A stretch of 64,000 nt of DNA from Desulfovibrio sp. MES5 (GCF_002237645.1 NZ_MJUZ01000011.1:186001-250000); one strand, 5' to 3'. Positions 27,359-44,636 are shown, counted from the first letter of the stretch. Notes: generated from the sequence alone by a model not told the origin. Numbers and translations: made by a program.

Positions 27359-28798
27359 TTACGAAGTGCCCGTGGTTTGGGCCTGCGGCGGTTCGTCCTT
27401 GCCTTTTTCAAAGGGGGGCGGGGGCCGCCACCGCCAGAACAGGGCCAGCAGAGGGATGAGGCCTGCGCCTTCGGCGAGCTCGCGCGGAGCAACTGTGCCG
27501 ACGCCCCACCACAGAACCACGCTTGAGGCGGCGGTGGCCAGCATGAGCAACCATTGCCCTGGGCTCATGGGGCGGGCTGTCCACTGGAAAAAGCCCACGG
27601 TAAGGATGGCGACCCATACCTTGGTAATGGTCAGGGAAAGCGCCGCCCCATCCAGCGGATTGGCTGGAATAAGCGTAAGACAGCAGACAATGTTGAGTAT
27701 GAGTCCGCTGACATAGAAGAGCAGCAGCAGGCGGTGGCGGCGCATGCCGATCATGGCGTAGGCGGCGAGGTTGTGCAGAAAGGCCGTGGCCAGGCAGGGG
27801 GTAAGCAGCTGCTGGGCGCGAACAGCGCTTTCATAGTTGTGGCCGTAAACAAGGGGCAAAAACCTGTCGCTCTCAACGCAGATAAGAAAAATGACGGGCA
27901 GGGCTGCCGCCCACAGGGAGCGGGCCGTCTGTCCGGCAAGTTGGCGGAAGGCGTTTCTGTCGTTCTGCCAGAATTTTGCCAGCAGCGGAAAGATAACCTT
28001 GCCGAGCAGGGCGCTGGATACCAGAACCGACAGGCCTTCTACGGTTTCCCAGGCCACGCCGTAGCCGCCCACATCGGCGTTGCCGCCGTACTGCTTGAGA
28101 AAAATGACGTTGATCTTGTTGTAGAACATGGCGCAGGCCGCCATGCAGGTGAAGATGAGGCCGTGCTTCATCTGTCGGGCAAGGTCAAGCATCCCCTCCC
28201 GGCCCACGCCCGCAAGAGGGTTGCGCCCCAGGGCGGCCAGCGCGAACACGACGCACAATATGGATTCAATGGGTTTGTACAGGGCAATGAGTATGGGCGG
28301 CGCGCCCATGACCACGCAGGTGATGCCAAAGCCGATGCCGATGAGCGCCGAAGGCACGCGGATGCGCATTTCCACATCCTGACGGCCACGGGCCTGGCAC
28401 AGCGCAAAAAAGGAGTCGCTGACGCCGTCAAGCCCAAGTCCTGCGGCAATGCACAGGACGATGAGGCGCAGTTCCGGGCTGTAGTTCTGCCAGCCGGTGA
28501 CAAGCCAGGTGACGGCCAGAGCCAGCACCAGCACCGTGAGTTTGAGCCAGGTCACTTCGCCCAGCAGGGCGCGGGGGCGGCCTTCACGCCGCGCAAAGGT
28601 GGACAGCAGAAAGTCGTTGAGGCCCACATCGGCAATGGTTTTTACCAGATAGCCAAAGGTAAGCGCCAAGACCACCTGCCCCATAATGTCGGGGCTGCGG
28701 CGGGCCAGCAAAATGGTAAAGGCTGCCCATGCCAGGTCGCGCGTCCATTGCGCGCCCAGAATGTAGCCGAGCCTGCGGGGAATGCTCTTGAGCTTCAT
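27359..28798 (-). CDS. Wzx-like polysaccharide/lipid-linked sugar flippase
   Basis: A 479-residue membrane protein with about 12-14 helices, resembling O-antigen/exopolysaccharide flippases of the MOP superfamily. Supporting features are GQVVLALTFGYLVKTIADVGLNDFLLSTFARR near the start, VGGYGVAWETVEGLSVLVSSALLGKVIFPLLAKF in the middle and a hydrophilic Pro-rich tail. It would turn a lipid-linked product over the inner membrane. It is the fourth and last gene of the leftward operon (PKS-like, TolC-like, HlyD-like, flippase), 9 bases after the HlyD-like gene. This placement suggests that the product of the PKS/AOS/glycosyltransferase locus needs flipping. Confidence 0.82.
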   Translation of the reverse strand: MKLKSIPRRLGYILGAQWTRDLAWAAFTILLARRSPDIMGQVVLALTFGYLVKTIADVGLNDFLLSTFARREGRPRALLGEVTWLKLTVLVLALAVTWLVTGWQNYSPELRLIVLCIAAGLGLDGVSDSFFALCQARGRQDVEMRIRVPSALIGIGFGITCVVMGAPPILIALYKPIESILCVVFALAALGRNPLAGVGREGMLDLARQMKHGLIFTCMAACAMFYNKINVIFLKQYGGNADVGGYGVAWETVEGLSVLVSSALLGKVIFPLLAKFWQNDRNAFRQLAGQTARSLWAAALPVIFLICVESDRFLPLVYGHNYESAVRAQQLLTPCLATAFLHNLAAYAMIGMRRHRLLLLFYVSGLILNIVCCLTLIPANPLDGAALSLTITKVWVAILTVGFFQWTARPMSPGQWLLMLATAASSVVLWWGVGTVAPRELAEGAGLIPLLALFWRWRPPPPFEKGKDEPPQAQTTGTS

Positions 28799-28807
28799 GT
28801 GGGGGCT

Positions 28808-29770
28808 TTACCTGCTGCCCCCGAAACGCACAACAGCCTTGAAGCCGGGCTTGAGTTCCAACTCCGGGTTGGGCACGGTGATTTCCACCGTGTAGTACGA
28901 GGGGTTGGCAACATTCATATCATTAGAAACCCATGATATTTCAGTTACCGTGCCCGTAAATGTCTTGTTGCCAAGCGAGGGTATTTCCACCGCGACGCTG
29001 TCGCCTTCAGAAATGCCGCTGACCTCGGCTTCATACACCGGCACCTGGATAAGCACGGGATTAAGCTGTCCCACCTTGATGGGGGCGCTGCCAGCGGGGA
29101 GCAGGGTGCCTGGGTTGAGCGTGGCGTCCAGGGACAGCACATAGCCCTTGAGGGGCGAGGTCAGGGTCAGGGTTTCGGGCAGAATTGCCCCTTCCTTGAT
29201 TTCCTGCCCGTAGTAGCTGCTCAGTTCCTTGAGGCGAATGTTAAAGCTGTCTTCGGCCTTTTTGATGGTGATGCGGGTGAGTTCGATGCGCCGTTGCAGG
29301 GAGGTCACGTCCTCCTCAAGACGGCTCGAAGCCTGACGCGAGCCGAGGCCCGACGCCGCGAGCTGGCGCGCCTTGTTGCGCTGGGCAATGGTTTCCGCCA
29401 GCCGGCGTTCAAGGTCCAGCACCTGGCTGTTGAGGCTTTCCGTGCTGGCCCCTTGCATCACTTCGCGCTGCACAGCGCGCTCCGCATCTTCATGCAGGTG
29501 GTAGCGCATAAGGGGCGCGCCTTCGTCAACGGGATCCCCTGGCTTGACCAGCACGGAATCCACCACAGCGTTAAACGGCATGGGTATGGCGCGGATGACC
29601 GTGGTCACCACCTTGCCTGTAAGAATGGTCCCGCCTGATTTCGGGGCGTCCGCTGCAAAGGCCGACACGGTGAAAGTCAGGACGAGCATAAGGGCCGATG
29701 CCAGGCCCAGCGCCCCCTTGCGGAACCGATGGACTGAGCGTGCGGAGCTGGTGCGGGAAGAGCGCGCCAT
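28808..29770 (-). CDS. HlyD-like periplasmic adaptor (membrane fusion protein)
   Basis: A 320-residue protein with an N-terminal signal or anchor (ALGLASALMLVLTFTVSAFA), a split lipoyl/barrel-sandwich domain (AVVDSVLVKPGDPVDEGAPLMRY at about 68-90, then LTSPLKGYVLSLDATLNPGTLL), and between them an alpha-helical hairpin rich in Gln/Arg/Glu (about 90-190). A beta-barrel segment with YEAEVSGISEGDSVAVEIPS follows. Such adaptors bridge an inner-membrane component to a TolC-type channel. The start at 29770 overlaps the stop of the TolC-like gene as TAATG, so translation is coupled. No ABC or RND pump is encoded here; the flippase downstream is the only inner-membrane transporter. Confidence 0.85.
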   Translation of the reverse strand: MARSSRTSSARSVHRFRKGALGLASALMLVLTFTVSAFAADAPKSGGTILTGKVVTTVIRAIPMPFNAVVDSVLVKPGDPVDEGAPLMRYHLHEDAERAVQREVMQGASTESLNSQVLDLERRLAETIAQRNKARQLAASGLGSRQASSRLEEDVTSLQRRIELTRITIKKAEDSFNIRLKELSSYYGQEIKEGAILPETLTLTSPLKGYVLSLDATLNPGTLLPAGSAPIKVGQLNPVLIQVPVYEAEVSGISEGDSVAVEIPSLGNKTFTGTVTEISWVSNDMNVANPSYYTVEITVPNPELELKPGFKAVVRFGGSR

Positions 29771-31233
29771 TACAGCACCTCCTTGGCGGGCAGACCGAGG
29801 AAACGTTCCTGAAGCGAGGTGGCAAGGTACATCCATTCAAGCTGGGCCAGTTCACAGGCAAGTTCGGCCCGGATAAAGGCGATCTGGGCCTGCACCATGG
29901 CTTCCTGCTTGTCGGCCACGGCGGGAAGCTCCGCGATGCCTTCGTTGAAGGAAATGTGGGCTTCCTTGTACTGCATGGCCGCCGTGTCAAAGCGCGTACG
30001 CGCAAGTTTGAGCTCGGTTTCGGCCAGGGCCATGTTCTGTTCTGTCTGCAGCCATTTGTTGGAATAGTCCGTGCGTTTGCGGGCCATGTCGTGGAAGGCC
30101 TGGGCCTTCACCATGCGGGCGGTCTGCACGCCACGGTAACGGCGGCCCCAGTCCAGCAGGGGGAAGTCGAAGTTCAGGTGCAGGAAGGTGTCTTCAGTGC
30201 CGCTGGCGGGCTGGTATTGCCCCGAAGGCGGGTTGTTGTTGACGCTGATGCTCATGTTGGGAATGTACTGGGCCCAGGCGACCATGATGTTGTAATCGCC
30301 CAGCTTTATCTGGCCGCGCAGCAGCAGGTCGTCTTCAGTGGTGTTCCAACGGTCGTCCCACTTGAGGCCGCGTCCGTTGAAGCCCCTGAGGATTTCGTCC
30401 GCGTTGGCGGTGTCCACGTCAAGCCTTTGCTGCGGATCCACGCCCGCAAGAATTTTCAGCTGGGTAAGCTGCATGGTTTCCTTCATCTTGGTCTGTTCCA
30501 CCATAAGCTCAAGCTCGCGCTGGTGCTGCATGGCCAGATTGAGGGAAACGCCCTGGCGGCCGTCCACGGCTTCCACCTGCTGCCAGTAGGAGACCAGTTC
30601 CTTGCCGATGGGCAGCAGGTCTTTTTGTACTTTTACGATTTTTTTCTGCGCCTGCAGTTGCAGGTAGGCCTGGGCAATCTTGTAGATAGCTTCGCCCACG
30701 GCCTTGCGGTGCGTGGAAATGGCCAGGTTGACCATGGCCTTCTGCACCTGATGCTCAAAATAGGTGGCCACAGGGTTGGGAAAGGCCGCGTAGAAACCCA
30801 CGGAAAGCTTGGTGCGGCCGTAGTCGCCGGGAGTGTCCTTGTTGTCCATGTTGTTGCGGGTGAGGTTGTTGGTCACCTGCATGGTCATGCGGGGTTCGGG
30901 CAGGTACTTCCAGACGGCGTCGGTAAGGGCCACCCGCTTGATTTCCAGATCCACGGCGCTGTTGACCAGCAGGGGCGACTGCTGGATGGTCAGGAAGACG
31001 CAGTCTTCAAAGGTGAAGACCTTGCTGGGATCGTAGAGGTTGGGCACAGCGGCCTCAAGCTTTGTCTTGTTTTCCACCGGCACGCCGGGCGCTTCTTCCA
31101 GCCAGTGCTTGGCCGGAAGTTCCGGGGATTTGAGCCCAGCCTTATTGGAGGCGCATGCTGAGAAAAACAAGGTCATGACAAGCAGCAGCGGCAGATATGC
31201 ACGCGCTGAGAGAGTACGTATAATATGCGGCAT
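29770..31233 (-). CDS. TolC-like outer-membrane efflux lipoprotein
   Basis: A 487-residue outer-membrane channel of the TolC/OEP family, with a lipoprotein signal (LLLVMTLFFSAC, Cys about residue 27). The periplasmic helices form long coiled-coil stretches with two repeats (about 75-260 and 290-480). Strand-turn signatures include LPEPRMTMQVTNNLTR and YIPNMSISVNNNPPSGQY. It is co-translated with the HlyD-like adaptor and sits 66 bases behind the PKS-like gene, so the operon encodes an envelope-spanning export route together with a biosynthetic enzyme. Confidence 0.88.
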   Translation of the reverse strand: MPHIIRTLSARAYLPLLLVMTLFFSACASNKAGLKSPELPAKHWLEEAPGVPVENKTKLEAAVPNLYDPSKVFTFEDCVFLTIQQSPLLVNSAVDLEIKRVALTDAVWKYLPEPRMTMQVTNNLTRNNMDNKDTPGDYGRTKLSVGFYAAFPNPVATYFEHQVQKAMVNLAISTHRKAVGEAIYKIAQAYLQLQAQKKIVKVQKDLLPIGKELVSYWQQVEAVDGRQGVSLNLAMQHQRELELMVEQTKMKETMQLTQLKILAGVDPQQRLDVDTANADEILRGFNGRGLKWDDRWNTTEDDLLLRGQIKLGDYNIMVAWAQYIPNMSISVNNNPPSGQYQPASGTEDTFLHLNFDFPLLDWGRRYRGVQTARMVKAQAFHDMARKRTDYSNKWLQTEQNMALAETELKLARTRFDTAAMQYKEAHISFNEGIAELPAVADKQEAMVQAQIAFIRAELACELAQLEWMYLATSLQERFLGLPAKEVL

Positions 31234-31299
31234 CAGGCACCCTTTGCAGTCTCGCGCTCGGCGCGTTGGTATAGTCGCTATTGCAGTGGCGGAGACGCG

Positions 31300-34200
31300 C
31301 TAAAGCGCGGCGGCCCCGGTGTCCCGCCTGTTAAATTCAAGATGGTGGAGCGTGAGAAAGACGCGGCCCTGTTCGTCAGCGGCCTGGCCGTCAAAGCGCA
31401 ACAACGCAGGATCGGACCAGGAACGACGCAGCATTATACGCCATGGTCCCTTGCCCCTTTCGCTGCCAAAGCGAATGAATCCCGCCGCATGCAAGCGCCA
31501 GCGCGCAATGGCGGCGGCAACCGCCCCTGCGTCCATTTCGGCTTTGCCGGTACCCCGGGCAATAGCCAGCCAGGCGGACTGCACCATTCCCTCCACCACA
31601 TTCAGGACGTCAGTATAGCCTTTATTGCCATCGGGGGCAATGGCTGTATGCCGTTGATCCAACCACGCGGCATACTTGTGATTGGGCAGCACGGTAAAGT
31701 CCTGTAACATGCGCCAGGGTTGGCCGAAACCCAGTACGTTGTAAAAAACATCAGTATTAACAGTATGCTGCGTTACGCCTTCAGGCGCGTCTTCTCCATG
31801 CGCCCACATGGGCGGCACCAGCCCGTTGGCGGCGGCCAGCATGGTCATGCCCGCAGCCACCGGCGTGTAGCGCTCAATGTGTCTGCCGTTGGGCGTGAGC
31901 TCCCTAACGTCCAGCGTACTCCGGCACATGCGCGCCATGACGCCGTCCTGCATGAGCCAGGGTTCCGCCTCCACTGTAGCGCGGCATTCACGGGTAATGC
32001 CCGGCGGCAGCAAGGGAGGATCAAAAAAGCGCAGGTCTAAAAAGCCGGTGACCGTCAGCCAGGGCAGCCACAGGCTGGAGGCTTCCAGCAGGGCCGCCAG
32101 AGCCCGGCTCGTGGGCAACCAGGGCGTGTCGCCCGACGCGTTGCCCGGCTGACCGCCGTGCAGGGCGAGGGCCGTGTCGGCAAAGCGCGAATAGTGGCAG
32201 CCGCCCTGAAAAAGGGTGGAGGTAGCGCGGTAGGGAGGGTGCGGATCGGGGAAAACCAGGGGATACAGGCGCGGCCTTTCCTGAATGATGAGCCCCTGCG
32301 GCGCGGCTTCGTTCCTGGCCGCATGCCCGTGGACAGCGGCAGGCGCGGCCCGAAGGCCTGCGGCGGATGCGGCAAAGCCGGGCAGGGTTGTGGGCCGCAC
32401 CCACAAAACGTGGCGTGAGGTGCCCCTCAGAAGTTCGCGGGCCATCATGTCGCCCCAGTCATTCAGACCGGCGCGCAGGCTTCTTTCCAGCAGGCGTATG
32501 GTGCGGGCGCCCACGCCCGCCTCTTCTCCAAGTTCATCAAATCGTTTTTCCAGCGGGCTGTCGCAGTACAGGTTTTCCAACGTGGGCTGCAGCAGACTGC
32601 ACAGGCATGCGTAGCGCAGGCCGTGTATCTGGGTTGCCCGCATGGCTGCGGCCAGCAGTTTGGGCATGCCGACGGCGGCAAAGGAAACGGGTGAAAGGAG
32701 CGGAGCGGCATCCTGTTCTTCTCTGCCGTAGTGGCCGCCAGGCGCGAAGATCAGGCCGTCTACCCGGCCCTCGCTGTTTGCCAGGCTTGTCAGGGCGGTG
32801 GCGACTTCCTCCGCCAGGGTCTGGGCCTCGGGGGCGTCGCGCGGAATACGCGTTTCAAGGTTGAGCGGCACAATACGCGCGCCAGCTTTGGCCAGCGGCG
32901 CGCATGCCTCAACCTGCGCGCGCGGCACGGCCAGCACGCAGCCCAGTGGGGCAAGACCATTCATGAGTGAGGGCAGCAGGGCTGACTCAAAGAACAGCAG
33001 GGCCAGAATATCTCCCCGCCGGATGGGCAGGCCCTGGCCGCAGGGGTCCAGCGGCAGCGACTTGGGGAACGGACCGGCATTTTCGCCTTTTCCCCTGCTT
33101 TCGATCTGGGCGCTCCGGTGCAGCGGAGTGAAGCGGCACAGCGGGGCGCAGGCCCGCACAAGCGCCTTCTGGCGGACACCGGCCTGACGGACGGCCTCGG
33201 ACGTATCGGATTCCTTCGTTTCGCCAATGCCGGACGCGCCAAGAATACGCGCAAGGTCGCCCACTGTGGACACTTGCAGCAGGTCTTCAAAGTTGACGGT
33301 GATATCCAGCGCCTTTTCCACTTCCTGAATGATGAGCGGAAAACGGCTGGAACGCAGGGCCAGGTCGTAGCGCAGGTCCAGGTCTGGCCGCATGTCTTCC
33401 ACCGAGCGGCCGCTGGCGCGGGCCAGCACGTCCAGAACCACGCGCAGGGCTGCCGCTGACGATACGGAGTCGGCGGCATTGGCGGATTCGGGCGCACCCC
33501 CAGGCGTGGGCGCAACGGCGGGAGCCGCCACAGGTGTCGGTGAAGCTTCCGGTGCCGCCGTGGGGCAGGGCGTGCCGCTGTTGGCGTCGCAAATTTTCAC
33601 GCAGCCGGGGCCGCAGTCGGGGCCGGTGCCCGGGCTGCTGTCAGGCCCGCAATCCGGCCCGCAATCCTGCGAGTCCACGGGGACAAGGCCGCAGTACGGC
33701 AGCGGCATATGCGCAGCCACGACTGCGTCCTTGCCCTGGCGAATATCGGAGATGCGGGCGTTGATGGCCTTTTTGCTCAAATACCCGAGCGCGTACAGGC
33801 GCGCGCACGTCTGGCGCATGCCTTCCACTTCCTTGCCCTTGCGCCCGGCAGACAGGCAGAACGCGCGCGGCTCATTGTCCTTGACCAGGCCGCAAAGCGT
33901 GTCCTGCGGGCCCAGCTCCAGAAAGTGGCGTATGCCGTCTCTGCGCCATGCCGCGTGTACGCATTCGGTCCAGCGCACGGAATTTTCATCCAGATCGGCG
34001 ATGTGGCGGCTGATGGACGGCTGGTCGTCAGGATAAAAATTCGTGGTGATGCAGCTCATTATGGGAATGCGCGGCGGGTGCATTTCAAGCGCATTGAGGC
34101 GTCGCAGCGAAAGGTCGCGCAGCATGCGCATGCTCGGGTGGTGGAAGGCCAGGCTCACGTTGAGCATGATGGCCGGTATGCGCCGCTTGCGCAGGCTTTT

Positions 34201-35784
34201 GCGGGCATCCATCAGGACTTCGCGCGGCCCGCTCAGGATGAACTGCTGGGGAGTATTGTAGTTGGAAACGTACAGGGCGGGCCATGCGGCGCGCGTCTCG
34301 TCAATGATTTCTGCGCTGGCGTGCACGGCCATCATGCCGGTCTCGCGCGTGGCGGCTGCCTCCAGTTCGGACATGTGCACGGCGCGGGTGTCAAGTATGT
34401 ACCAGGCCACTTCCGGCTCGTAGATGCCGCAGAGGCACAGGCCGATCAGCTCGCCCAGGCTGTGCCCGCAGAACAGCGAGGGCCGCAGCCCGAGGGAGGA
34501 AAGAACGCTCCACTGCGCAAACTCGAGCATGAAAAGGTAGGGCGACTGCCAGCGCGTGAGGCTGACTTTTTCAGCGTCCTTTTCATCCATAAGGCCGAGC
34601 ACATCCCAGTCGGCCACCGCGGCGATACGGTCCATTGCGGCGCGGGCCACAGGGAAATTGTCGTACAGTTCGCGGCCCATGCCGGGCCATACAGAACCGA
34701 GGCCGCAGCACATGACGGCAAGGGGCGGGGCATCTGCTTCCGGCGAGAGCCAGACGCCGCGCCCTTCAAAGCGGGCCAGGTCAGTGGGGGAGGGATTGTG
34801 CGGCACGGCCAGCAGTTCGTGCCGCCAAAGCGGATTGGTGGCCCCCATGCGCCACATCAGACCGTCCTGGGGCAAATTCGCGTAACGCACGCCGTCCAGA
34901 ATGAGTTCTCCCTGCGGGTCCTGGCCTTCCGGGGCGGCGGGGCTGGAAACAGAGATCTGGCCCGCGCCCGCAGTGAGCCCGCCGGGCTGCCAGAGCGCTG
35001 GCGTGGCGTTTGCGTTGGGGCGATCAGACTTTTGCTGCAGGGGGTTTTTGCGGCACCTGAGCGTGTCGCAGCACGGAGGCGTGGGGGCAGGCAGGCTCAA
35101 CAGAAGCGGCTGGCACTGCAACTGGAGCGAATCGTCTGTCTGAAAATCCAGCAGAAGAATGGTAGGCACGCGCCCTGCCTGCGGACGCATGGATTGTTCA
35201 TCGCCCAAGGCGCGGTCTGCGTCGGAAGCGTAGTAATCGGGGCACTGCGGCATGCTGACGCCCATAGTGTCGGGCTGCGGGGCGCTGCCGTTCATGCACG
35301 GATAGATGGCGTTTGCCTCCGAGCCCGTGCCACGGGCCGCGCGCAGCAGCCTTTCGCATTCCCTGAGGTGCGCGGGATGAAAAGATTCAAATTGCAGGCG
35401 TACCGGCCCGAGGCGCCACAAGTTTTGCAGTCCTTCCAGGGCAAGGCTCAGAGACTGGGCCAGAGCGGAGGGGGTGGCGGATTCGTTCCAGTACAGGCAG
35501 AGCATGACGGGGCCCGGGTTTTCCACAAGCTTGAGCCAGTCAAGGCAGTGCCGGATCAGCGTCTGAGCGCACACCTGACCGGAAGAGGCGCCGGATTCTG
35601 CCGGATTTTCAGCGCCGGGGCAGGAAAGCGTGATGCTTGGAGGCGACGCCACAAGCAGTCCGTCTTCAAGAACGGCGCTGTCTGGCGTACTGGCCTTGTC
35701 TGGCGAAGTGCCGTAAGCTGGGGCAGGGTCTTGCTGCATAAATTTGGGGCCTGTGGCGCGGGGTTGGTCAAATGGCCAAGCCAT
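31300..35784 (-). CDS. PKS-like multidomain protein (AT-ACP-KR-DH) without ketosynthase
   Basis: A 1494-residue protein with polyketide/PUFA-synthase-like order but no ketosynthase. Residues 1-350: unrecognised. About 355-690: acyltransferase with GHSLGE (Ser about 442), LAFHHPSM with the catalytic His, and DTRAVHM retaining the Arg that binds the malonyl carboxylate; the usual GQGSQ is altered to GLGSV. About 700-760: Pro/Cys linker with DCGP units. About 780-855: acyl carrier domain, with Ser in LALRSSRF in place of LGxDSL. About 910-1150: degenerate Rossmann/ketoreductase-like region (VDGLIFAPGG, then NDWGDM) lacking a clear GxGxxG. About 1170-1490: hot-dog dehydratase-like domain. First gene of the leftward operon; divergent from an alpha-oxoamine synthase. 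A Met at residue 16 is an alternative start. Confidence 0.85.
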   Translation of the reverse strand: MAWPFDQPRATGPKFMQQDPAPAYGTSPDKASTPDSAVLEDGLLVASPPSITLSCPGAENPAESGASSGQVCAQTLIRHCLDWLKLVENPGPVMLCLYWNESATPSALAQSLSLALEGLQNLWRLGPVRLQFESFHPAHLRECERLLRAARGTGSEANAIYPCMNGSAPQPDTMGVSMPQCPDYYASDADRALGDEQSMRPQAGRVPTILLLDFQTDDSLQLQCQPLLLSLPAPTPPCCDTLRCRKNPLQQKSDRPNANATPALWQPGGLTAGAGQISVSSPAAPEGQDPQGELILDGVRYANLPQDGLMWRMGATNPLWRHELLAVPHNPSPTDLARFEGRGVWLSPEADAPPLAVMCCGLGSVWPGMGRELYDNFPVARAAMDRIAAVADWDVLGLMDEKDAEKVSLTRWQSPYLFMLEFAQWSVLSSLGLRPSLFCGHSLGELIGLCLCGIYEPEVAWYILDTRAVHMSELEAAATRETGMMAVHASAEIIDETRAAWPALYVSNYNTPQQFILSGPREVLMDARKSLRKRRIPAIMLNVSLAFHHPSMRMLRDLSLRRLNALEMHPPRIPIMSCITTNFYPDDQPSISRHIADLDENSVRWTECVHAAWRRDGIRHFLELGPQDTLCGLVKDNEPRAFCLSAGRKGKEVEGMRQTCARLYALGYLSKKAINARISDIRQGKDAVVAAHMPLPYCGLVPVDSQDCGPDCGPDSSPGTGPDCGPGCVKICDANSGTPCPTAAPEASPTPVAAPAVAPTPGGAPESANAADSVSSAAALRVVLDVLARASGRSVEDMRPDLDLRYDLALRSSRFPLIIQEVEKALDITVNFEDLLQVSTVGDLARILGASGIGETKESDTSEAVRQAGVRQKALVRACAPLCRFTPLHRSAQIESRGKGENAGPFPKSLPLDPCGQGLPIRRGDILALLFFESALLPSLMNGLAPLGCVLAVPRAQVEACAPLAKAGARIVPLNLETRIPRDAPEAQTLAEEVATALTSLANSEGRVDGLIFAPGGHYGREEQDAAPLLSPVSFAAVGMPKLLAAAMRATQIHGLRYACLCSLLQPTLENLYCDSPLEKRFDELGEEAGVGARTIRLLERSLRAGLNDWGDMMARELLRGTSRHVLWVRPTTLPGFAASAAGLRAAPAAVHGHAARNEAAPQGLIIQERPRLYPLVFPDPHPPYRATSTLFQGGCHYSRFADTALALHGGQPGNASGDTPWLPTSRALAALLEASSLWLPWLTVTGFLDLRFFDPPLLPPGITRECRATVEAEPWLMQDGVMARMCRSTLDVRELTPNGRHIERYTPVAAGMTMLAAANGLVPPMWAHGEDAPEGVTQHTVNTDVFYNVLGFGQPWRMLQDFTVLPNHKYAAWLDQRHTAIAPDGNKGYTDVLNVVEGMVQSAWLAIARGTGKAEMDAGAVAAAIARWRLHAAGFIRFGSERGKGPWRIMLRRSWSDPALLRFDGQAADEQGRVFLTLHHLEFNRRDTGAAAL

Positions 35785-36092
35785 AATGAGGGTTGGTTAA
35801 GAGCAGTATGTTAGAGTATATCGATCCTCTTGTCCAGAAGTCGGGCGGAAAATAAGCCCCGGCGGCAGCGGCTGTGGGGCTCTCTCGACGCATCCAACCG
35901 GCTGGCATGATGGTGAAAGCAGGCCCCGGGGCGTCACCGTGTCGTGCTGGCAGGCAATAGGCATTCCGCACTTGCCATAGGTTGACGGTTTAGCTATACT
36001 GGCTCCTTACAAAGTTGCGCCCTCTGCTCGGCCGCTTGCTGTCGGTTGCGGGCCGGTGCATTTTTTTTGGACAAATTTTAAGAGGATACGGC
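35785..36092. promoter_or_regulatory. divergent promoter region between the PKS-like and oxoamine synthase operons
   Basis: This 308-base region drives both arms. Rightward: TTGCCA (35972-35977), 17-bp spacer, TATACT (35995-36000). Leftward: a TATACT hexamer near 35815-35820 on the reverse strand, but no good -35. No operator palindrome was recognised. Confidence 0.6.
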
Positions 36093-37412
36093 ATGAAGAA
36101 CGACCATTCCTGTCAGGCTGGCCAAGAGGCGGCGTCACCTGCTGCCGCCGCAGAAAGCTCCGCAGGCGGTTTCAGCCGCATGCGTTCCAAGCTCGCCTTT
36201 GACCGGCTTGTGGAGATGGGAGCCAAGATGGGGATGGAAAATCCTCTTTTCCTCTGCCACGAACGGGCGGCCAAGGCCACCACGCTCATAGGCGGCAAGG
36301 AATATCTGAATTTTTCCACCTACGACTATCTGGACATTAACGCCCATCCGGAAATAACCGAGGCCGTTACCCGCGCTGCCACCGTGTATGGCACATCGGC
36401 CGGAGCCAGCCGCCTTGTGGGCGGCGAGCGCCCGCCCCACCGCGAACTTGAGCGCGCCTTTGCCGACCTGTACGGCGTGGAAGACTGCATCGTCTACGTG
36501 AGCGGCCATGCCACCAACGTGTCCACCCTCGGCTTTCTGCTGGGCCACCGCGACGCCATCTTTCATGACGGCCTGGCCCACAACTCCCTGGTGCAGGGCG
36601 CACGCCTTTCGCACGCCGCGCGCTACTCTTACAATCACAATGACTGCGACGCCCTTGAAGAAATGCTCAAGGCCAAGCGCGCCGAGCACAAACGGGCCAT
36701 CATCGTCACCGAAGGCCTGTTCAGCATGGACGGCAATATCCCCGACCTGCCCCGCATCATCCAGCTGAAAAAGCAGTATGACTGCATGCTGCTGGTGGAT
36801 GAAGCCCACTCGCTGGGCGTGCTCGGCAAGACCGGGCGCGGCGCGCACGAATATTTCGGCATCGACGCCAGCGAAGTGGATATGTGGATGAGCACGCTCT
36901 CCAAGTCCATGTGCGGTTGCGGCGGTTTTATCGCGGGCAAGCACGAGCTGGTGGAATTTTTGAAGTACGGCTCGCCGGGCTTTGTGTTCAGCGTCGGCAT
37001 GCCGCCCGTTATTGCCGTCGCCTGCCACAAGGCTCTGGAGATCATGTTGCGTGAACCCGAACGGGTGCACAAACTGCAGAGAATCTCGCAGTTCTTTGTG
37101 GAATATGCCGCCAGCATCGGTCTGGATACGGGCTCGGCCCAGGGCTATGCCATCGTGCCTGTGATGGTGGGCGATCCTATGGTGGCGGGCTTTTTGTCCA
37201 ATGCGCTTTTCAAGCGCGGCATCTACGTTATGCCCATCACCTTTCCGGCGGTCAAAGAAGGCACCGACAGGCTGCGCTTCTTCCTTTCCGCCGCTCACAC
37301 CGAAGAACACATCCGTCAGGCCCTGGACGCAGTGAAGGAAGAAATTCCCAAGGCACAGGCCATTGTTGAAAAGTACAAAAGCGAACACGCCGAAGAAACC
37401 CTGGGCGAATAA
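36093..37412 (+). CDS. alpha-oxoamine synthase (AONS/serine-palmitoyltransferase-like PLP enzyme)
   Basis: A 439-residue fold-type I PLP enzyme. This family condenses an amino acid with an acyl thioester and releases CO2 to form an alpha-aminoketone. Motifs: DEAHSLGVLGKTGRG (Asp about 236), TLSKSMCGCGG with the PLP Lys at about 271, and HDGLAHNSLVQGARLS for the substrate-side His. A ~45-residue Ala-rich extension precedes the core. The start at 36093 has AAGAGGATA upstream; a longer frame from 36015 lacks a ribosome site. It is not next to bio or kbl genes but divergent from a protein with its own acyl carrier domain and starts a glycosyltransferase operon. I infer a sphingoid-like or amino-ketone lipid role rather than biotin synthesis. 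Confidence 0.85.
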   Translation: MKNDHSCQAGQEAASPAAAAESSAGGFSRMRSKLAFDRLVEMGAKMGMENPLFLCHERAAKATTLIGGKEYLNFSTYDYLDINAHPEITEAVTRAATVYGTSAGASRLVGGERPPHRELERAFADLYGVEDCIVYVSGHATNVSTLGFLLGHRDAIFHDGLAHNSLVQGARLSHAARYSYNHNDCDALEEMLKAKRAEHKRAIIVTEGLFSMDGNIPDLPRIIQLKKQYDCMLLVDEAHSLGVLGKTGRGAHEYFGIDASEVDMWMSTLSKSMCGCGGFIAGKHELVEFLKYGSPGFVFSVGMPPVIAVACHKALEIMLREPERVHKLQRISQFFVEYAASIGLDTGSAQGYAIVPVMVGDPMVAGFLSNALFKRGIYVMPITFPAVKEGTDRLRFFLSAAHTEEHIRQALDAVKEEIPKAQAIVEKYKSEHAEETLGE

Positions 37413-37469
37413 AAAAAGCACTCCGGGCCGGGCCATCAGGCCCGGCTCTCGTTTATTGCGGAGACTGAT

Positions 37470-38861
37470 ATGCCTTTAACCAGCGGCTCTGCCACAGAAG
37501 CGGGCGCAACAAGCGGCCAGCAGACCGTGCCGCCGATTGTTGCCTATGTGCTTCTCTGGTTTCCCCTGTCTTCAGAGACATTTATTTTTCGCGAGGTCGT
37601 GCAGCTTCGAAAGCGGGGAATGCGCGTATTCGCCTACAGCATGTATGGCGAAAACCTCAAGGGCTGCAGCGAAGAAATGCGCGCCTATGACGGCCCCGTG
37701 GGCCGTATGGGCATCAGGGCCGCCGGCAGCATACTGGCCGCTTTTGTGCGCGCCCTGCGCCAGCGGCCCGGGGCTACGTGGAAGCTCATGCGCGAAGGGC
37801 TTTTTCGCCGCATGCGCAACCTTGAAGCGGTGGGCGAAAATATCTGGTGCTTTCTGGCGGGCTTTGTTCTGGCCGAAAAGTGCCGCGAGGATGGCGTGCA
37901 GCTCATTCATGCGGCCTGGGCAAACGGCCCGGCCACAGCCGCCTGGGTGGCCTCGCGGGTGACTGGCATTCCCTTTGCCTTTACCGGCCGCGCCGGAGAC
38001 ATCTATCCTGAAGACGGCCTGCTCAAGGAAAAATCGCGCGACGCGCTGTTCATCCGCACCAACAATCGCACCAATGTGCAGTGGCTGCGCGGGTTTTGTC
38101 CCCCCGATGCCGCAGACAAGGTGCACGCCATCTACAACAGCCTTACCTTCCGTCCGCGCGGCCAGTGCGCCATGCCCATGCAGCCTCCCTACCGCCTTTT
38201 GGCCGTGGGCCGCTTTGCGCGCACCAAGGGCTTTCCTGAATTGCTCATGGCAATGGCGCGTCTGCGGCGTGAAAAGGTGCCCGTGACCCTGACCTTGGTG
38301 GGCGACGGCAACTGGCACCACAAGCTCGTCAAGATGCGTGATGACCTGGACCTCACTCAGGTAGTGGACATGCCTGGCTTTATTCCGCATGATAAAATCT
38401 GCGGATTCATGCTGGACCACGATATGCTCATCATGCCCAGCGTGGTGCACACCAATGGCGACCGCGACGGCATCCCCAACGTCATAATGGAAGCGCTTTC
38501 GCACCGCATGCCTGTTATCGCCACCGATGTGTGCGGCATTGCCGAGGTGGTCATAGACGGCGAAACCGGCCTGCTGGTGCCGCAACGCGACCCCCGCGCC
38601 CTGGCCAATGCGGTGCGCCGCATGGTGGCCGACAGGGACGCCGCCATGGCCATGGCCGAGGCGGGGCGGGTTCACGTTGAAAAACTTTTTGATCCCACGC
38701 GCAATATCACGACAGTCTATGAGCTGTATGTGGACCAATGCGCCGGGGCTGCGGGTTCTGCCGAAGCCGCCAGTGTTGCCGATACCGCCGGTGCCGCCGG
38801 GGGCCAACAGCAAAAAATCCCCGGCATGGCCGGCGCAGACGCGGAAAAAGAGGAAGTATGA
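37470..38861 (+). CDS. GT4-family glycosyltransferase (first paralogue)
   Basis: A 463-residue GT-B fold glycosyltransferase, likely retaining and using a nucleotide-sugar donor at the cytoplasmic face of the inner membrane. The C-terminal donor domain shows LLAVGRFARTKGFPELL (about 247-263), MPGFIPHDKICGFM, and the GT4 signature DGIPNVIMEALSHRMPVIATD (about 332-352). The N-terminal LLWFPLSSETFIFREV matches colanic-acid/amylovoran-type enzymes. The last ~40 residues are an Ala/Gly-rich tail. GGAGACTGAT precedes the start. Its stop overlaps the next gene (ATGA). It is paralogous to the GT at 39988, suggesting consecutive sugar additions. Confidence 0.88.
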   Translation: MPLTSGSATEAGATSGQQTVPPIVAYVLLWFPLSSETFIFREVVQLRKRGMRVFAYSMYGENLKGCSEEMRAYDGPVGRMGIRAAGSILAAFVRALRQRPGATWKLMREGLFRRMRNLEAVGENIWCFLAGFVLAEKCREDGVQLIHAAWANGPATAAWVASRVTGIPFAFTGRAGDIYPEDGLLKEKSRDALFIRTNNRTNVQWLRGFCPPDAADKVHAIYNSLTFRPRGQCAMPMQPPYRLLAVGRFARTKGFPELLMAMARLRREKVPVTLTLVGDGNWHHKLVKMRDDLDLTQVVDMPGFIPHDKICGFMLDHDMLIMPSVVHTNGDRDGIPNVIMEALSHRMPVIATDVCGIAEVVIDGETGLLVPQRDPRALANAVRRMVADRDAAMAMAEAGRVHVEKLFDPTRNITTVYELYVDQCAGAAGSAEAASVADTAGAAGGQQQKIPGMAGADAEKEEV

Positions 38862-39895
38862 GCCGCCCTGTGCTCTACCTTGCCGTCAGCCTGGACGTGG
38901 AGGAAGAGGGGCTATTTGGCGGCCGGTACGCGCGCCGGGGCTTCTCGACGGCCAATACCGCCAGCCTGGAACGGCTTGCCCCCCTGTGCGAGCGGGGGAT
39001 ACGGCCCACACTGTTCTGCGCGCACAGCGTTTTGTCCGATACGGCTTCCCGGCATGTGCTGGCGCAGATGCGCGACAGGCACGGGGCAGAAATAGGCGCG
39101 CACCTGCATCACTGGAATACGCCCCCCCTGACGCTTGACGGCCCTGGGGCCGACGCCGATCTGGCCGACAATGCCGCAAGCGTGCCCGCCGCCGCCGTGC
39201 CAGCGCCGCTCATGGCCGCCAAGCTTGCAAGCCTTATGGCCGCGGGCAGGGATTTTCAGTCCGCGCCGCTGACGTCGTTTCGCATGGGCCGCTGGGATCT
39301 GCACAAAAACCTCTGGCCCATACTGGCGCAGGCCGGAATACGGGTGGACGCCTCGGTGCGCCCTCTGCACTGCGGGGCCACGCCCCTGGCCGGGCCGGAT
39401 CATTTCGACGCTCCCCGCAACCCCTACTGGGTGACTGTCGGGCAGGAGCGCATTTTCGAGGTTCCGCTCAGCGTAACGCCTCTTGTGCGCCCCTTGCCGG
39501 GCCTGGTGCGTCGGGCGGCTCCCGGCTTGCGTCCGGGATTCAAGAACTGGGGCGCGCTGAGCCTGCTGCCCGTCTATCATCCCCTGTGGGCCATGCAGGC
39601 TGTTACCAGACTTTTTGCCGCCAGGGGCGGGCAGGTATTGTCGCTTACCTGGCACTCGTCGGAAATGATGCCGGGCGGCGCGCCCCATCTGCCTGACGCA
39701 GCAGCTGTGGACAGGCTCATGAACAAGATTTTGGCATGGACGGACTGGCTCACATCCCGCTGGGAGGTGCGCAGTCTGACCATGGACCAGTTGCGGGAAA
39801 CGCTGGGGCCTCGGGCTCCCGACAGTGCAGAGCTGCTGCGCGGCAACACTGCGGGGCGCGGCGATTGGGCGTACCCGCCCCAAGAAGCTCCATAG
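38858..39895 (+). CDS. polysaccharide deacetylase (NodB-like) family protein
   Basis: A 345-residue cytoplasmic protein with no signal peptide. The N-terminus LAVSLDVEEEGLFGG carries the metal/catalytic Asp region, followed by IGAHLHHWNTPP (about 70-80) with the His pair and FRMGRWDLH (about 137-145), all typical of NodB-like carbohydrate esterases. The C-terminal LSLTWHSSEMMPG supplies the later His. These enzymes remove N-acetyl groups from sugars. The start overlaps the stop of the preceding GT gene as ATGA, implying coupled translation. It is embedded between two GT4 genes, so it probably acts on the growing glycan or lipid-linked amino sugar. Confidence 0.85.
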   Translation: MSRPVLYLAVSLDVEEEGLFGGRYARRGFSTANTASLERLAPLCERGIRPTLFCAHSVLSDTASRHVLAQMRDRHGAEIGAHLHHWNTPPLTLDGPGADADLADNAASVPAAAVPAPLMAAKLASLMAAGRDFQSAPLTSFRMGRWDLHKNLWPILAQAGIRVDASVRPLHCGATPLAGPDHFDAPRNPYWVTVGQERIFEVPLSVTPLVRPLPGLVRRAAPGLRPGFKNWGALSLLPVYHPLWAMQAVTRLFAARGGQVLSLTWHSSEMMPGGAPHLPDAAAVDRLMNKILAWTDWLTSRWEVRSLTMDQLRETLGPRAPDSAELLRGNTAGRGDWAYPPQEAP

Positions 39896-39987
39896 CCGGC
39901 ATCTTTTATAGTACTGTCCGGTCAACTATTGGTAATTCAAGGTATAATCGGTGGGTTTGCCCCTTCGCGGACGCTCAGGAGTGAGCA

Positions 39988-41487
39988 ATGACAGAAAGCA
40001 AGACGAGTGAGCCGGTCACCCAGCAGCCATTTGAACCCGGTCTGCCACACGTAGCCTGCGTACTATTGTGGTACCCTCTGTTCACGCAGCCCTTTATTTT
40101 TCGTGAGGTACAGGGGCTCAGAAAGCGTCTTCCCGTCTCTGTCTACAGTTTGTATGGAGCCAACCTGCGGCACTGTTCCACAGAAATGCGGATGGCGGCG
40201 CGGCGGACCCACACTTTGGGCTCGCGGGCCATCTTCACCATTCTGGCCGAAGTGATGCGTCAGTTGTTTACCCACCCTCTGCGTCTGGGGCGTCTTTTCA
40301 GGCGCACCATGTTTCGCCGCTGGCGCTGCATTGAAACCATGGGCGAGAACCTCTGGGCTTTTTGCGCGGGAGTCTACCTGGCGCGGCAATTCACTGAAGC
40401 CGGCATTGACATGATCTACGCGCCCTGGCCGCGCGGCACGGCCACCGCCGCCTGGGTTGCGGGCAGTATTGCCGGATTGCCGTTCGCCACCTGCGCACGG
40501 GGCGACAATCTTGAACCGGCAGACCCGGATCTGGGCGCAAAACTCGATGCGGCCTTTTTGGTGCGCGCCAACAACGGCGCGGACAAGGCGCGTATTGAAA
40601 GCTTTGACCGGGGCCAGGCCAAGGGTAAGGTGGAACTCGTTTACAACGGCCTGACCCTGCCGCCTCTTGAAGACGTATCCGTGGCTGACCAGGCTGACCA
40701 GGCTGACCAGACAGGGCAGGCAGGGCAGACAGAACAGCCAAGGCAGGCTGGGCAGGAAGAGCGCGGGGCATCTTTGGCGGGGCAGGCTTCTCCGGCCTCC
40801 TGCGATTTCAGCGACGTTGCCCATTCCTTCCCGCAGTTGGAGGTGGTTTCTCCCTCGCCATCGCCTGTGCCCATGGCGCGGCCAGTGCGTCTGCTGGCTC
40901 TGGGCAGGTTTGACGTCACCAAGGGTTTTGACGTGCTGCTCCAGGCGTGCGGCTTGCTGCAGGACAGGGGGCTGGACTTCACCCTGACTCTGGCGGGGGG
41001 CGGCGGCACCGTGATGGGGCTTGGCTGCATGCAGGCCGAACTGACGCGCTTGCGTAAGGATCTGGGGCTTGAAGCCCGTGTGAGCATGCCCGGCCTCATT
41101 TCTCACAATGAACTGCCCCGGCTGCTCAAAGACCACGATATTTTTGTAGCGCCCTGCGTGGTGCACGCTTCGGGCCGTCGCGACGGCATCCCCAACACCG
41201 TCATCGAGGCTCTGGCCTACGGCCTGCCCGTGGTCAGCACCACGGTCAACGCGCTGCCCGAGGTAGTCCGGCACGGCAAGACGGGGCTTGCTGTACCGCA
41301 GCACGATGCCGAAGCCCTGGCTGGCGCTGTCGAAATGCTGGCCAATGATTCGGCCCTGGCGGCTGGCCTTGCCCGCAACGGCAGGCTGCTGGCGGCCCGG
41401 ATGTTTGACCCTGAAGCCAACAATGACCGTTTGGCGCGTATTTTCACCAATAATTACAGGTGTTGGAAAGAAACATGTGTGGAATAG
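39988..41487 (+). CDS. GT4-family glycosyltransferase (second paralogue, with Gln-rich insertion)
   Basis: A 499-residue GT-B glycosyltransferase that aligns with the one at 37470 (both share LLWYPLF/FPLS..FIFREV, YSxYGxNL, then DGIPNxxxEAL). The donor-binding half has LLALGRFDVTKGFDVLL (about 302-318), MPGLISHNELPRLL and GIPNTVIEALAYGLPVVSTT. Between the two domains (about residues 232-262) is an insertion built from ADQ/AGQ-type repeats that the paralogue lacks. Its end overlaps the asnB-like start by 13 bases. Likely adds another sugar in the same pathway. Confidence 0.87.
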   Translation: MTESKTSEPVTQQPFEPGLPHVACVLLWYPLFTQPFIFREVQGLRKRLPVSVYSLYGANLRHCSTEMRMAARRTHTLGSRAIFTILAEVMRQLFTHPLRLGRLFRRTMFRRWRCIETMGENLWAFCAGVYLARQFTEAGIDMIYAPWPRGTATAAWVAGSIAGLPFATCARGDNLEPADPDLGAKLDAAFLVRANNGADKARIESFDRGQAKGKVELVYNGLTLPPLEDVSVADQADQADQTGQAGQTEQPRQAGQEERGASLAGQASPASCDFSDVAHSFPQLEVVSPSPSPVPMARPVRLLALGRFDVTKGFDVLLQACGLLQDRGLDFTLTLAGGGGTVMGLGCMQAELTRLRKDLGLEARVSMPGLISHNELPRLLKDHDIFVAPCVVHASGRRDGIPNTVIEALAYGLPVVSTTVNALPEVVRHGKTGLAVPQHDAEALAGAVEMLANDSALAAGLARNGRLLAARMFDPEANNDRLARIFTNNYRCWKETCVE

Positions 41488-43400
41488 CCGGTATTTGCCA
41501 ACTGGACGCTTCGCCTCTTGACCCTCAGGCTCAGCACTGGGTCAAGGCCATGACCGATTGCATCGCCCACCGGGGGCCGGACGGCGAGGGGCAGTGGTTG
41601 CAAGGCCCTGTCTGCCTGGGGCACCGGCGTCTTTCCATCATTGACCTCGGCACGGGCGGCCAGCCCATGCACAGCGTCGACGGGCGCTATACGGTCGTAT
41701 TCAACGGAGAGATCTATAATTTCGCGGAACTCAAGCAGGAACTTGCCGCCAATGGCGCGCGCTTTTGCACCAGCTCCGACACCGAGGTCATACTGGAAGG
41801 CTACCGCCAGTGGGGCGTGGAGTGCCTGTCCCGCTTCAACGGCATGTTCGCCTTTGCTCTGTGGGATGCCCACAAGCAGCGCCTTTTCTGCGCGCGCGAT
41901 CCTTTTGGCAAAAAGCCCTTTTTCTATACCGTGCAGCAGGGCAGGCTGCATTTTGCCTCTGAACTGACGGCGCTTGAAAAAATTCCCGGCCTGAGCCTGA
42001 CCATGCAGCCCGAAGCTGTCATGCGCTACCTGGCCTATGAATATGTGCCCACGCCGCAGACCATCTATGGCGAGGTGGAAAGCCTGCCTCCCGCGCACTG
42101 GCTGCTGCTGGAGGGCGGCGTCCTGCGTACGGGCCGCTACTGGGACATGCCCATGCCCGACGAGAGCGACAGGCGCAACCCGGATCAGCTTGGCGAGGAA
42201 TTGCAGTTTCTGATGGCGCGCGCTGTGCGTCGGCGCATGGTCAGCGACGTGCCCCTGGGCGTTTTTCTTTCGGGCGGCATTGATTCGTCCATTGTGGCCG
42301 GGCTTATGGCGCGGCAGTCCCCCACGCCCATAAAGACGTTTTCCATCGGCTTCAGCGAAGCCAGCTATGACGAATCGCGCTATGCCCGCATAGTGGCCGA
42401 AGCTTTTGGCACTGACCACCATGAGCGCGTGCTTTCCGCCGAAGAGTGCGCCGACAACCTGCCCGGCATTGTCAGCAAAATGGACGTGCCCATGGCCGAT
42501 GCCTCGGTAGCGCCCACCTGGCTGCTTTCGGGCGTGACGCGGGAAAAAGTCACCGTGGCCCTTGGCGGCGACGGCGCGGACGAACTGTGGGCCGGATACG
42601 AGCACTACATCGGCTTCAAGGTGGCGGAATGGTACAACGCCCTGCCCGCGCTGGTGCGGCGCAAGGTTGTGGAGCCCCTGGCCCGCCGCCTGCCTTCCTC
42701 GGCAGGGTATATCAATCCGCGTCTGGCTGTGGCCACGTTTCTGCGGGCGGCCCAGGCCCCGGCCTGGCAGCGGGTGCAGACCATGCTCACCGCCTTTACC
42801 CCCGATATGCAGGCCGAAATTCTGACCGGAGCCTTCAAGGCGCAAGCGCCGGGCTTTCTTTCGCCGGAGCGCCTCTTCGCGCCCACGCGCGAGCACTTTG
42901 AGCACTGGCAGCCTTACAGCGCGGCCACGCCTTTGGCGCGGGCGTTCTACGTCTACGCGCACCAGTTCATGCTGGACGACATTTTGGTCAAGGTGGACCG
43001 CTGCTCCATGCTGCACGGCCTTGAAGTGCGCGCGCCCTTTTTGGACAAGGACGTGGCCGAATTCGCCGCGCGCCTGCCCGTGGATCGCAAGCTGCACGGA
43101 TTCAAGCGCAAGTGGCTGCTCAAGCGGGCCTTTGCAAATCTTTTGCCCCGCGAGATACTGTACCGCAACAAGCGGGGGTTTCAGATCCCCGTGGCGGAGT
43201 GGTTGCGCGGGCGCATGCGTCCCCTCATGGAAGACCTGCTCAGCCCGGACAGCCTCAAGGCCCAGGGCATCTTCAATCCTGCCGCCGTGCGCGCCCTCAT
43301 GGACGAGCACATTTCCGGCAGAGCCGATTTGCGCAAACCTTTGTGGACCCTGCTGGTCTTTCAGTTGTGGCGGCAGGCGCGCCAGCGTCCCGCTGCGTAA
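41475..43400 (+). CDS. asparagine-synthase (glutamine-hydrolysing) family amidotransferase
   Basis: A 641-residue AsnB-type enzyme. The start at 41475 makes Cys residue 2 (MCGIAGICQL), the Ntn-type nucleophile of the glutaminase domain after Met removal; an in-frame start five codons earlier would block it. The synthetase domain has the pyrophosphatase loop FLSGGIDSS (about 264-272) and LGGDGADELWAGYEHY (about 364-379). In polysaccharide loci these enzymes often amidate a sugar acid or other carboxylate rather than make free asparagine. Last gene of the rightward operon; overlaps the GT4 gene by 13 bases. Which carboxylate it amidates is unknown. Confidence 0.9.
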   Translation: MCGIAGICQLDASPLDPQAQHWVKAMTDCIAHRGPDGEGQWLQGPVCLGHRRLSIIDLGTGGQPMHSVDGRYTVVFNGEIYNFAELKQELAANGARFCTSSDTEVILEGYRQWGVECLSRFNGMFAFALWDAHKQRLFCARDPFGKKPFFYTVQQGRLHFASELTALEKIPGLSLTMQPEAVMRYLAYEYVPTPQTIYGEVESLPPAHWLLLEGGVLRTGRYWDMPMPDESDRRNPDQLGEELQFLMARAVRRRMVSDVPLGVFLSGGIDSSIVAGLMARQSPTPIKTFSIGFSEASYDESRYARIVAEAFGTDHHERVLSAEECADNLPGIVSKMDVPMADASVAPTWLLSGVTREKVTVALGGDGADELWAGYEHYIGFKVAEWYNALPALVRRKVVEPLARRLPSSAGYINPRLAVATFLRAAQAPAWQRVQTMLTAFTPDMQAEILTGAFKAQAPGFLSPERLFAPTREHFEHWQPYSAATPLARAFYVYAHQFMLDDILVKVDRCSMLHGLEVRAPFLDKDVAEFAARLPVDRKLHGFKRKWLLKRAFANLLPREILYRNKRGFQIPVAEWLRGRMRPLMEDLLSPDSLKAQGIFNPAAVRALMDEHISGRADLRKPLWTLLVFQLWRQARQRPAA

Positions 43401-43772: not shown

Positions 43773-44636
43773 ATGACCAGCCAGATCAAGACAGTTCTTC
43801 TTCTGGGTTTGCTTTCGGGCATCATCATAGTGCTTGGCGGCCTGCTTGGCGGGCGCACGGGCGTTATCATAGCCTTTGGCATGGCCCTGCTCATGAACGT
43901 GGGCAGCTATTGGTACTCGGACAAAATCGTGCTTTCTATGTACCGTGCGCGTGAGCTTGCGCCGGAAGAAGCTCCATATTTGCATAAAATTGTTGAGGAA
44001 TTGGCTCACAACGCAGGCGTTCCCAAGCCCCGCGTCTGTGTCGTGCCCGAAGAGGCTCCCAATGCCTTTGCCACCGGGCGCAATCCCGAACATGCGGTGG
44101 TGGCCGTGACCGAGGGCATTTTGCGCCTTCTGTCGCCCGAAGAACTGCGCGGCGTGGTGGCCCATGAGATGGGGCACATCGTCAACCGCGACATTCTTAT
44201 TCAGACCATCGCCGGGGTCATGGCTTCGGCCATTGTGACCATGGCCAATATTTTTCAGTTCACGGCCATATTCGGCGGCGGCAATCGTGACGGCGAAGGC
44301 GGCGGGGTCAATCCCATCGCGGCGCTGGCCATGGCCTTGCTGGCCCCGATGGCGGCCGGTCTTGTGCAGATGGCCATTTCGCGCTCGCGGGAATACCTGG
44401 CTGACGACACCGGGGCAGAGCTTTGCGGTCAGCCTTTGGCGCTGGCTGGCGCTCTGGCCAAACTCGGGGCGGCCAGCGGGCGCATACCCATGCGCGAGGG
44501 CAACCCCAGCACAGAGCAGATGTTCATAGTGTCGCCCATGTTTGCCCACAGCAGCATGGCCAATCTTTTCAGCACGCATCCGCCGCTGGAAGAACGCATT
44601 CGCAGGCTTCAGGCCATGGCGGCATCCCGGCGCTGA
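43773..44636 (+). CDS. htpX: M48-family membrane protease HtpX
   Basis: Inner-membrane zinc metalloprotease involved in quality control of membrane proteins. HEMGH (about residues 130-134) supplies two zinc His ligands and the catalytic Glu; the third ligand is the Glu of SREYLADDTG (about 207-216). Two N-terminal helices (IKTVLLLGLLSGIIIVLGGL and VIIAFGMALLMNVGSYW) and two more after the active site fit the family topology. Length 287 aa is normal. GAGGAGTACGC precedes the ATG. A small lipoprotein gene follows by 94 bases. Confidence 0.94.
   Translation: MTSQIKTVLLLGLLSGIIIVLGGLLGGRTGVIIAFGMALLMNVGSYWYSDKIVLSMYRARELAPEEAPYLHKIVEELAHNAGVPKPRVCVVPEEAPNAFATGRNPEHAVVAVTEGILRLLSPEELRGVVAHEMGHIVNRDILIQTIAGVMASAIVTMANIFQFTAIFGGGNRDGEGGGVNPIAALAMALLAPMAAGLVQMAISRSREYLADDTGAELCGQPLALAGALAKLGAASGRIPMREGNPSTEQMFIVSPMFAHSSMANLFSTHPPLEERIRRLQAMAASRR

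Follow-up and report, generated by a model that had tools for sequence, protein, structure and literature searches.

The 64,000-bp stretch of Desulfovibrio sp. MES5 DNA analysed here (the window; part of contig C11 of a 3.47-Mb genome) carries nine genes in two divergent operons that, on balance, we think are central to a pathway shared across the genus and dispersed in the genome, whose predicted product is a ceramide-type (sphingolipid-like) glycolipid. The minus-strand operon encodes P0001, an acyltransferase-acyl carrier protein-pseudoketoreductase-dehydratase (AT-ACP-pseudoKR-DH) protein, followed by TolC-like, HlyD-like and Wzx-like proteins, and the plus-strand operon encodes an alpha-oxoamine synthase (AOS), two family 4 glycosyltransferases (GT4a and GT4b) on either side of a NodB-like deacetylase, and an AsnB-like amidotransferase. 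The original prediction described nine open reading frames in back-to-back operons that share a 308-bp promoter region; all nine are present at the positions below, and the distance from ATG to ATG between the likely starts (35784 and 36093) is indeed 308 bp. Hidden Markov model (HMM) searches assign the proteins to the families Acyl_transf_1 plus PP-binding, OEP, HlyD_D23, Polysacc_synt_3, Aminotran_1_2 (AOS type), GT4 (two proteins) and Asn_synthase/GATase_7. The features, in window positions, are:

27359..28798, minus strand: Wzx/MOP-type flippase, 479 amino acids (aa) (Pfam PF13440, E 2.6e-18; NCBIfam Wzx_EPS below cut-off)
28808..29770, minus strand: HlyD/DevB-like periplasmic adaptor, 320 aa from the ATG in TAATG (PF16576, E 2.9e-16)
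29770..31233, minus strand: TolC-like outer-membrane factor with N-terminal lipobox-like LFFSAC (PF02321, E 3.1e-22)
31300..35784, minus strand: P0001, AT-ACP-pseudoKR-DH protein lacking a ketosynthase (KS), 1494 aa (HMM, alignment, model)
33892..34710, minus strand: P0001 acyltransferase domain, aa 359-631 (PF00698, E 2.7e-31)
33244..33441, minus strand: P0001 acyl carrier domain, aa 782-847, motif DLRYDLALRSSRFP (PF00550, E 8.9e-6)
32380..33027, minus strand: P0001 KR-like Rossmann region, approx. aa 920-1135, NAD(P)H motif lost (AF2 model and alignment)
31303..32217, minus strand: P0001 DH-like double hotdog, approx. aa 1190-1494 (Foldseek to polyketide synthase DH domains, E about 1e-12)
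35785..36092, no strand: shared divergent promoter region, 308 bp (predicted sigma-70-like sites 35972-36000 on plus, 35836-35808 on minus)
36093..37412, plus strand: alpha-oxoamine synthase, 439 aa from ATG 36093 (pyridoxal phosphate (PLP) Lys297, P0005 numbering)
37470..38861, plus strand: GT4a, EpsE-like (PF00534, E 1.3e-32)
38858..39895, plus strand: NodB-like deacetylase family protein, 345 aa (NodB-type motifs)
39988..41487, plus strand: GT4b (PF13692, E 1.5e-30)
41475..43400, plus strand: AsnB-like amidotransferase with MCGIAG start, nearest to XrtA-system amidotransferases (TIGR03108, 598 bits, below the cut-off of 817)

We infer every reaction of the proposed pathway, as well as its amino acid, chain source, head group and transporter pairing. 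P0001 would be a dedicated acyl carrier, holding an acyl chain on its ACP; the AOS would use this acyl thioester and an amino acid in a condensation that gives a 3-oxo long-chain base; homologues of the ketoreductase epi and then of the N-acyltransferase aca, encoded on contig C31, would convert the base to a lipid resembling dihydroceramide; a small amidated sugar head group would be attached and trimmed by the two GT4s, the deacetylase and the amidotransferase; Wzx would flip the glycolipid or a precursor; and HlyD and TolC, working with a MacB-type permease and an ABC-ATPase/GT4 fusion from contig C24, would carry the lipid to the outer membrane. Wzx and the ABC-HlyD-TolC route could act together in export, or one of them alone. 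The case for it is made from gene content, conservation, homologies, domain integrity and co-occurrence. The sphingoid-like glycolipid of the original prediction is still the best reading, as a predicted product, and it has been strengthened because aca and epi homologues occur throughout the genus, the AOS belongs to a clade linked to polyketide synthases (PKSs), and syntenic clusters are found in outgroups.

Orthologues of the AOS and of the left-arm Wzx are each found in 76 of the 79 genus genomes, including those of only 1.4 Mb. The two arms lie within 12 kb of one another in 49 of 73 genomes, and since the arrangement recurs across the genus it is not due to chance; in the rest a contig break falls between them or they are truly apart on one contig (G005, G015, G062). 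Where they are apart, the AOS-GT-deacetylase-GT-AsnB and P0001-TolC-HlyD-Wzx operons are each intact. The break in synteny at the shared promoter that was to count against the original prediction is thus seen in part, in several relatives, and the gene set is two co-conserved operons rather than one fixed locus; the idea of a self-contained locus is not supported, since the likely ABC parts and finishing enzymes also lie on other contigs. Separation with both operons intact is what would be expected if the arms were unrelated neighbours with only a promoter region in common, but their adjacency in two-thirds of the genomes, their retention in nearly all, and the outgroup clusters that hold homologues of both arms together make this improbable.

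The finishing genes were found on contig C31 of the MES5 genome, where an aca homologue of the GNAT type (L136:10485-11600) lies directly before an epi homologue of the SDR type (L136:11705-12769). They match E. coli BL21 YghO (ECD_02850; 28% over the full length, E 3e-53) and ECD_02852 (28%, E 2e-28), which have been proposed as a dihydroceramide N-acyltransferase and a 3-oxo-sphinganine reductase, respectively (PMC9386255; BL21 locus tags were matched to ECD numbers by gene order and from that paper). The aca homologue is present in 78 of 79 genus genomes, and in all 15 sampled for it the epi homologue lies beside it (15/15). In other Desulfobacterota (the f12 genomes) a single stretch encodes an Spt-like AOS, a MacB-type permease, a LolD-type ATPase, TolC and HlyD together with a GNAT-type aca homologue. 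Homologues of the deacetylase and of GT4 adjoin it, and one of these stretches has AsnB too. In C. crescentus dihydroceramide synthesis requires spt, a dedicated acp, acs (acyl-ACP synthetase), epi and aca, and a rhodobacterial Spt prefers its acyl group on the dedicated ACP (acyl-AcpR) (PMC9386255). The BL21 dihydroceramide genes adjoin extra LptF/LptG-type permease genes (L138:22835-29067), a possible exporter for the lipid.

The AOS matches E. coli B Spt at 31% and has the PLP lysine and the DEAH and AHNS-type motifs. In a tree whose deep joins are unsure due to long branches, the genus-core AOSs fall in a clade (support 100/100) with AOSs encoded directly behind complete KS-AT-DH-(MT)-ER-KR-ACP PKSs (MT, methyltransferase; ER, enoyl reductase); Spt, Kbl, BioF and the Spt-like AOS found in other Desulfobacterota fall outside it. 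These PKS-linked AOSs adjoin capsule genes of KpsC/KpsS type (PF05159) or Wza/KpsMT type, and judged by gene order these closest relatives probably serve to release the acyl chain carried by a PKS. Some Desulfovibrio (L105-L109) and relatives (L110-L113) have a second AOS behind a complete reducing PKS (KS-AT-DH-MT-ER-KR-ACP, about 2500 aa), and its position beside KpsC/KpsS or Wza/KpsMT-like genes hints at a PKS/oxoamine-derived lipid anchor for capsule. A reducing PKS with an oxoamine synthase is the fumonisin-type arrangement; these second loci are like it in order of parts, and differ in being bacterial and beside capsule export genes, and the window AOS differs further in having no complete PKS.

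Pfam recognises only the AT and ACP domains of P0001. Modelled with AlphaFold, aa 856-1494 (mean pLDDT 72.7) give a Rossmann-type region followed by a double hotdog with Foldseek matches among PKS dehydratases. The AT residues Ser442, Arg467 and His548 and the ACP serine are invariant in all 27 genus sequences; His1209 of the DH, which falls on the catalytic column in a joint alignment with the megasynthase described next, is kept in 22 of 27 and Glu/Asp1398 in 26 of 27, and shortened variants with open frames of 814-990 aa exist. A profile of its C-terminal region finds only 13 genomes outside the genus among 395 sampled in the phylum, mostly as the C-terminus of a ~2650-aa protein that in one scanned member has the order FabK-type ER, KS, AT, ACP, KR, DH (loci L076-L088). 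P0001 looks like a relic of this megasynthase because its sequence can be aligned with that protein from AT to DH and both carry an unusual ACP motif, D[LI]RxDLA[LI]RSSRxP. It differs in having no ER and no KS (none in a Pfam HMM scan), and the GG-type NAD(P)H glycine motif of the megasynthase KR is gone from all 27 orthologues. The AT-ACP-KR-DH layout first assigned to it is right as a series of folds, but a function as a reducing PKS is not supported: with neither KS nor cofactor motif, we rejected it. Some megasynthase loci have a phosphopantetheinyl transferase or an aca homologue next door. KS matches elsewhere in the MES5 genome are on contigs C3, C5 and C17; the C3 region (L005, L006) is a run of very long one-strand open reading frames with two KS domains, an NRPS/PKS-like cluster (NRPS, nonribosomal peptide synthetase) whose link to the locus found no support.

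Nine of the 11 genomes with the closest aca (GNAT) homologue hold the megasynthase (among 383 other phylum genomes, 13 with megasynthase), the two genes are adjacent in L081 and L085, and the deacetylase family tracks the megasynthase too (7 genomes in common, 4e-8). SDR genes beside the megasynthase (L083, L077) were considered as epi and rejected, as they resemble thioester reductases. The tracking of the closest aca homologues with the megasynthase across the phylum, together with the operonic association of the megasynthase with aca rather than with an AOS in L081 and L085, suggests a possible though doubtful variant of the pathway in which the P0001 ACP would serve the aca homologue with a special N-acyl chain and the AOS would take acyl-AcpP or acyl-CoA. 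Against it, most Desulfovibrio genomes have the P0001 and AOS genes divergently arranged, and aca is unlinked.

Several points weigh against a ceramide-type pathway. The AOS scores below all curated NCBIfam Spt cut-offs (290.6/640, 254.1/500 and 194.7/670 bits) and best on bioF (351 bits, below the cut-off of 426.45), so serine as its substrate is not implied. A role in biotin synthesis was rejected, since a true BioF on contig C14 passes the cut-off (443) and the AOS does not. The Fisher value for the co-occurrence of aca and megasynthase, 9e-14, treats related genomes as independent. The acyl-ACP synthetase AasR is not among the nine genes, and no genome search was aimed at it; the P0001 AT might stand in for it. 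Arg467, typical of malonyl transferases, suggests that this AT would load malonyl and speaks against a long acyl chain being loaded directly, unless a trans-acting KS takes part. Finally, the arms, the aca/epi pair and the ABC genes are unlinked in Desulfovibrio, so that their joint action rests on co-occurrence, and in this genus many genes co-occur. The loading by the AT, the acyl acceptor (AOS or aca), the amino acid and the joining of dispersed genes are the weakest steps. AOSs are known to release carrier-bound chains, as in prodigiosin (PigH) and fumonisin (Fum8) synthesis, and the malonyl-type arginine, the complete PKSs that precede the nearest AOS relatives, and two stand-alone KS genes in the MES5 genome would all fit a pathway to a short or polyketide-type amino ketone, in which AT-loaded malonyl is extended on the P0001 ACP by a trans-acting FabF-type KS, the AOS releases the chain, and the sugars modify a small amphiphile or signal. 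We regard this as unlikely: with a KR unable to bind cofactor as usual, no reduced chain would form, the aca/epi pair is left without explanation, and presence in 76 of 79 genomes, even those of 1.4 Mb, favours an envelope role over a secondary metabolite.

The locus encodes an HlyD adaptor and a TolC channel, and an energised transporter is absent among its nine genes. Contig C24 has a MacB-like permease (36-39%) and an ABC ATPase/GT4 fusion (50-51%) related to the homologues in the outgroup clusters; the fusion is one 656-aa protein (L115:2785-4755), the neighbours are GT4, GT2, second deacetylase and phosphodiesterase-like genes, and the layout is the same in the G042 counterpart (L128). 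With HlyD and TolC these proteins could form a DevBCA/TolC-like glycolipid exporter. The same export genes bear on whether the nine genes might be an ordinary Wzx-dependent exopolysaccharide or O-unit locus, in which the AOS and the AT-ACP protein would provide an acyl-type substituent for a sugar and not a lipid anchor. The EpsE-like glycosyltransferases, the XrtA/EPS-like AsnB (EPS, exopolysaccharide) and Wzx would suit such a locus, but TolC and HlyD are not Wzx/Wzy parts, in the outgroup clusters an Spt-like AOS stands alongside ABC-HlyD-TolC, and Wzy, Wzz, Wza and an initiating transferase are absent among the nine genes (the rest of the genome was not searched for them); we give it little credence.

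Within the operons, the original prediction read co-translation from ATGA/TAATG overlaps, and it is suggested at three junctions only: ATGA at GT4a/deacetylase, TAATG at TolC/HlyD, and a 13-bp overlap at GT4b/AsnB. The remaining junctions are gapped, with 57 bp after the AOS gene and 92 bp before GT4b; the former gap (37413-37469) contains a GC-rich hairpin, possibly an attenuator. The predicted sigma-70-like sites in the 308-bp region number one per strand (2 found versus 0.1 expected). The assignment of the deacetylase is mixed: the window protein has no significant Pfam match, and only one of 16 orthologues matches Polysacc_deac_1, weakly (E 0.03), but the NodB-type motifs SLDVEE, HLHHW and FRMGRW are unchanged in all 16 sequences. 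Both in the window (43773-44636) and in many relatives, AsnB is followed by an M48 peptidase gene, and the genes w19893 (ferredoxin-type) and w19405 (no known type) downstream of Wzx in relatives were taken as neighbours.

The locus is real and conserved, and its lipid interpretation is better supported than before, as a likely variant of bacterial sphingolipid-type pathways. It is like the C. crescentus/E. coli BL21 dihydroceramide pathway (spt, acpR, aasR, epi, aca; PMC9386255) in its homologous epi and aca, would be like it in having an AOS-type first enzyme with a putatively dedicated ACP, and is unlike it in that this ACP lies within P0001, the AOS is from the PKS-linked clade, the genes are dispersed, and glycosyltransferase/deacetylase/AsnB and exporter genes of its own are present. 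The cysteate acyl-ACP transferase SulA of capnine synthesis is an AOS with a preference for acyl-ACP (PMC9304779); it is a Bacteroidota enzyme with different gene neighbours. The heterocyst glycolipid system (hgl PKS, DevBCA, TolC; PMC8064123) combines PKS-type acyl machinery, glycosylation and export by HlyD-like DevB and TolC, a combination also predicted here; the Desulfovibrio locus differs in that it has no KS and its ABC parts are on another contig. A literature search on Desulfovibrio sphingolipids, oxoamine synthase and KpsC/PKS gave nothing pertinent beyond one E. coli capsule paper that has no such link, and in agreement with the original prediction no Desulfovibrio pathway with an oxoamine synthase was found described in the papers searched. 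We know of no AOS in the heterocyst system.

Among bacteria, sphingolipids have been described chiefly in Bacteroidota and in some Proteobacteria, and they are important in contact between microbe and host; Desulfovibrio, a gut sulfate reducer in a group of gut and sediment bacteria, is not known to make a sphingolipid-like lipid. We tentatively put forward the wider proposal that the genus makes an undescribed ceramide-type core envelope glycolipid by way of a decayed megasynthase carrier and a split ABC-HlyD-TolC exporter, and that some species attach a PKS/oxoamine amino lipid to KpsC/KpsS-type capsule. If true, a core sphingolipid-like glycolipid would be new in Desulfovibrio and would explain part of its envelope, and the locus would show both a fatty-acid megasynthase decaying into a carrier protein and an oxoamine synthase moving from a PKS to a lipid pathway.

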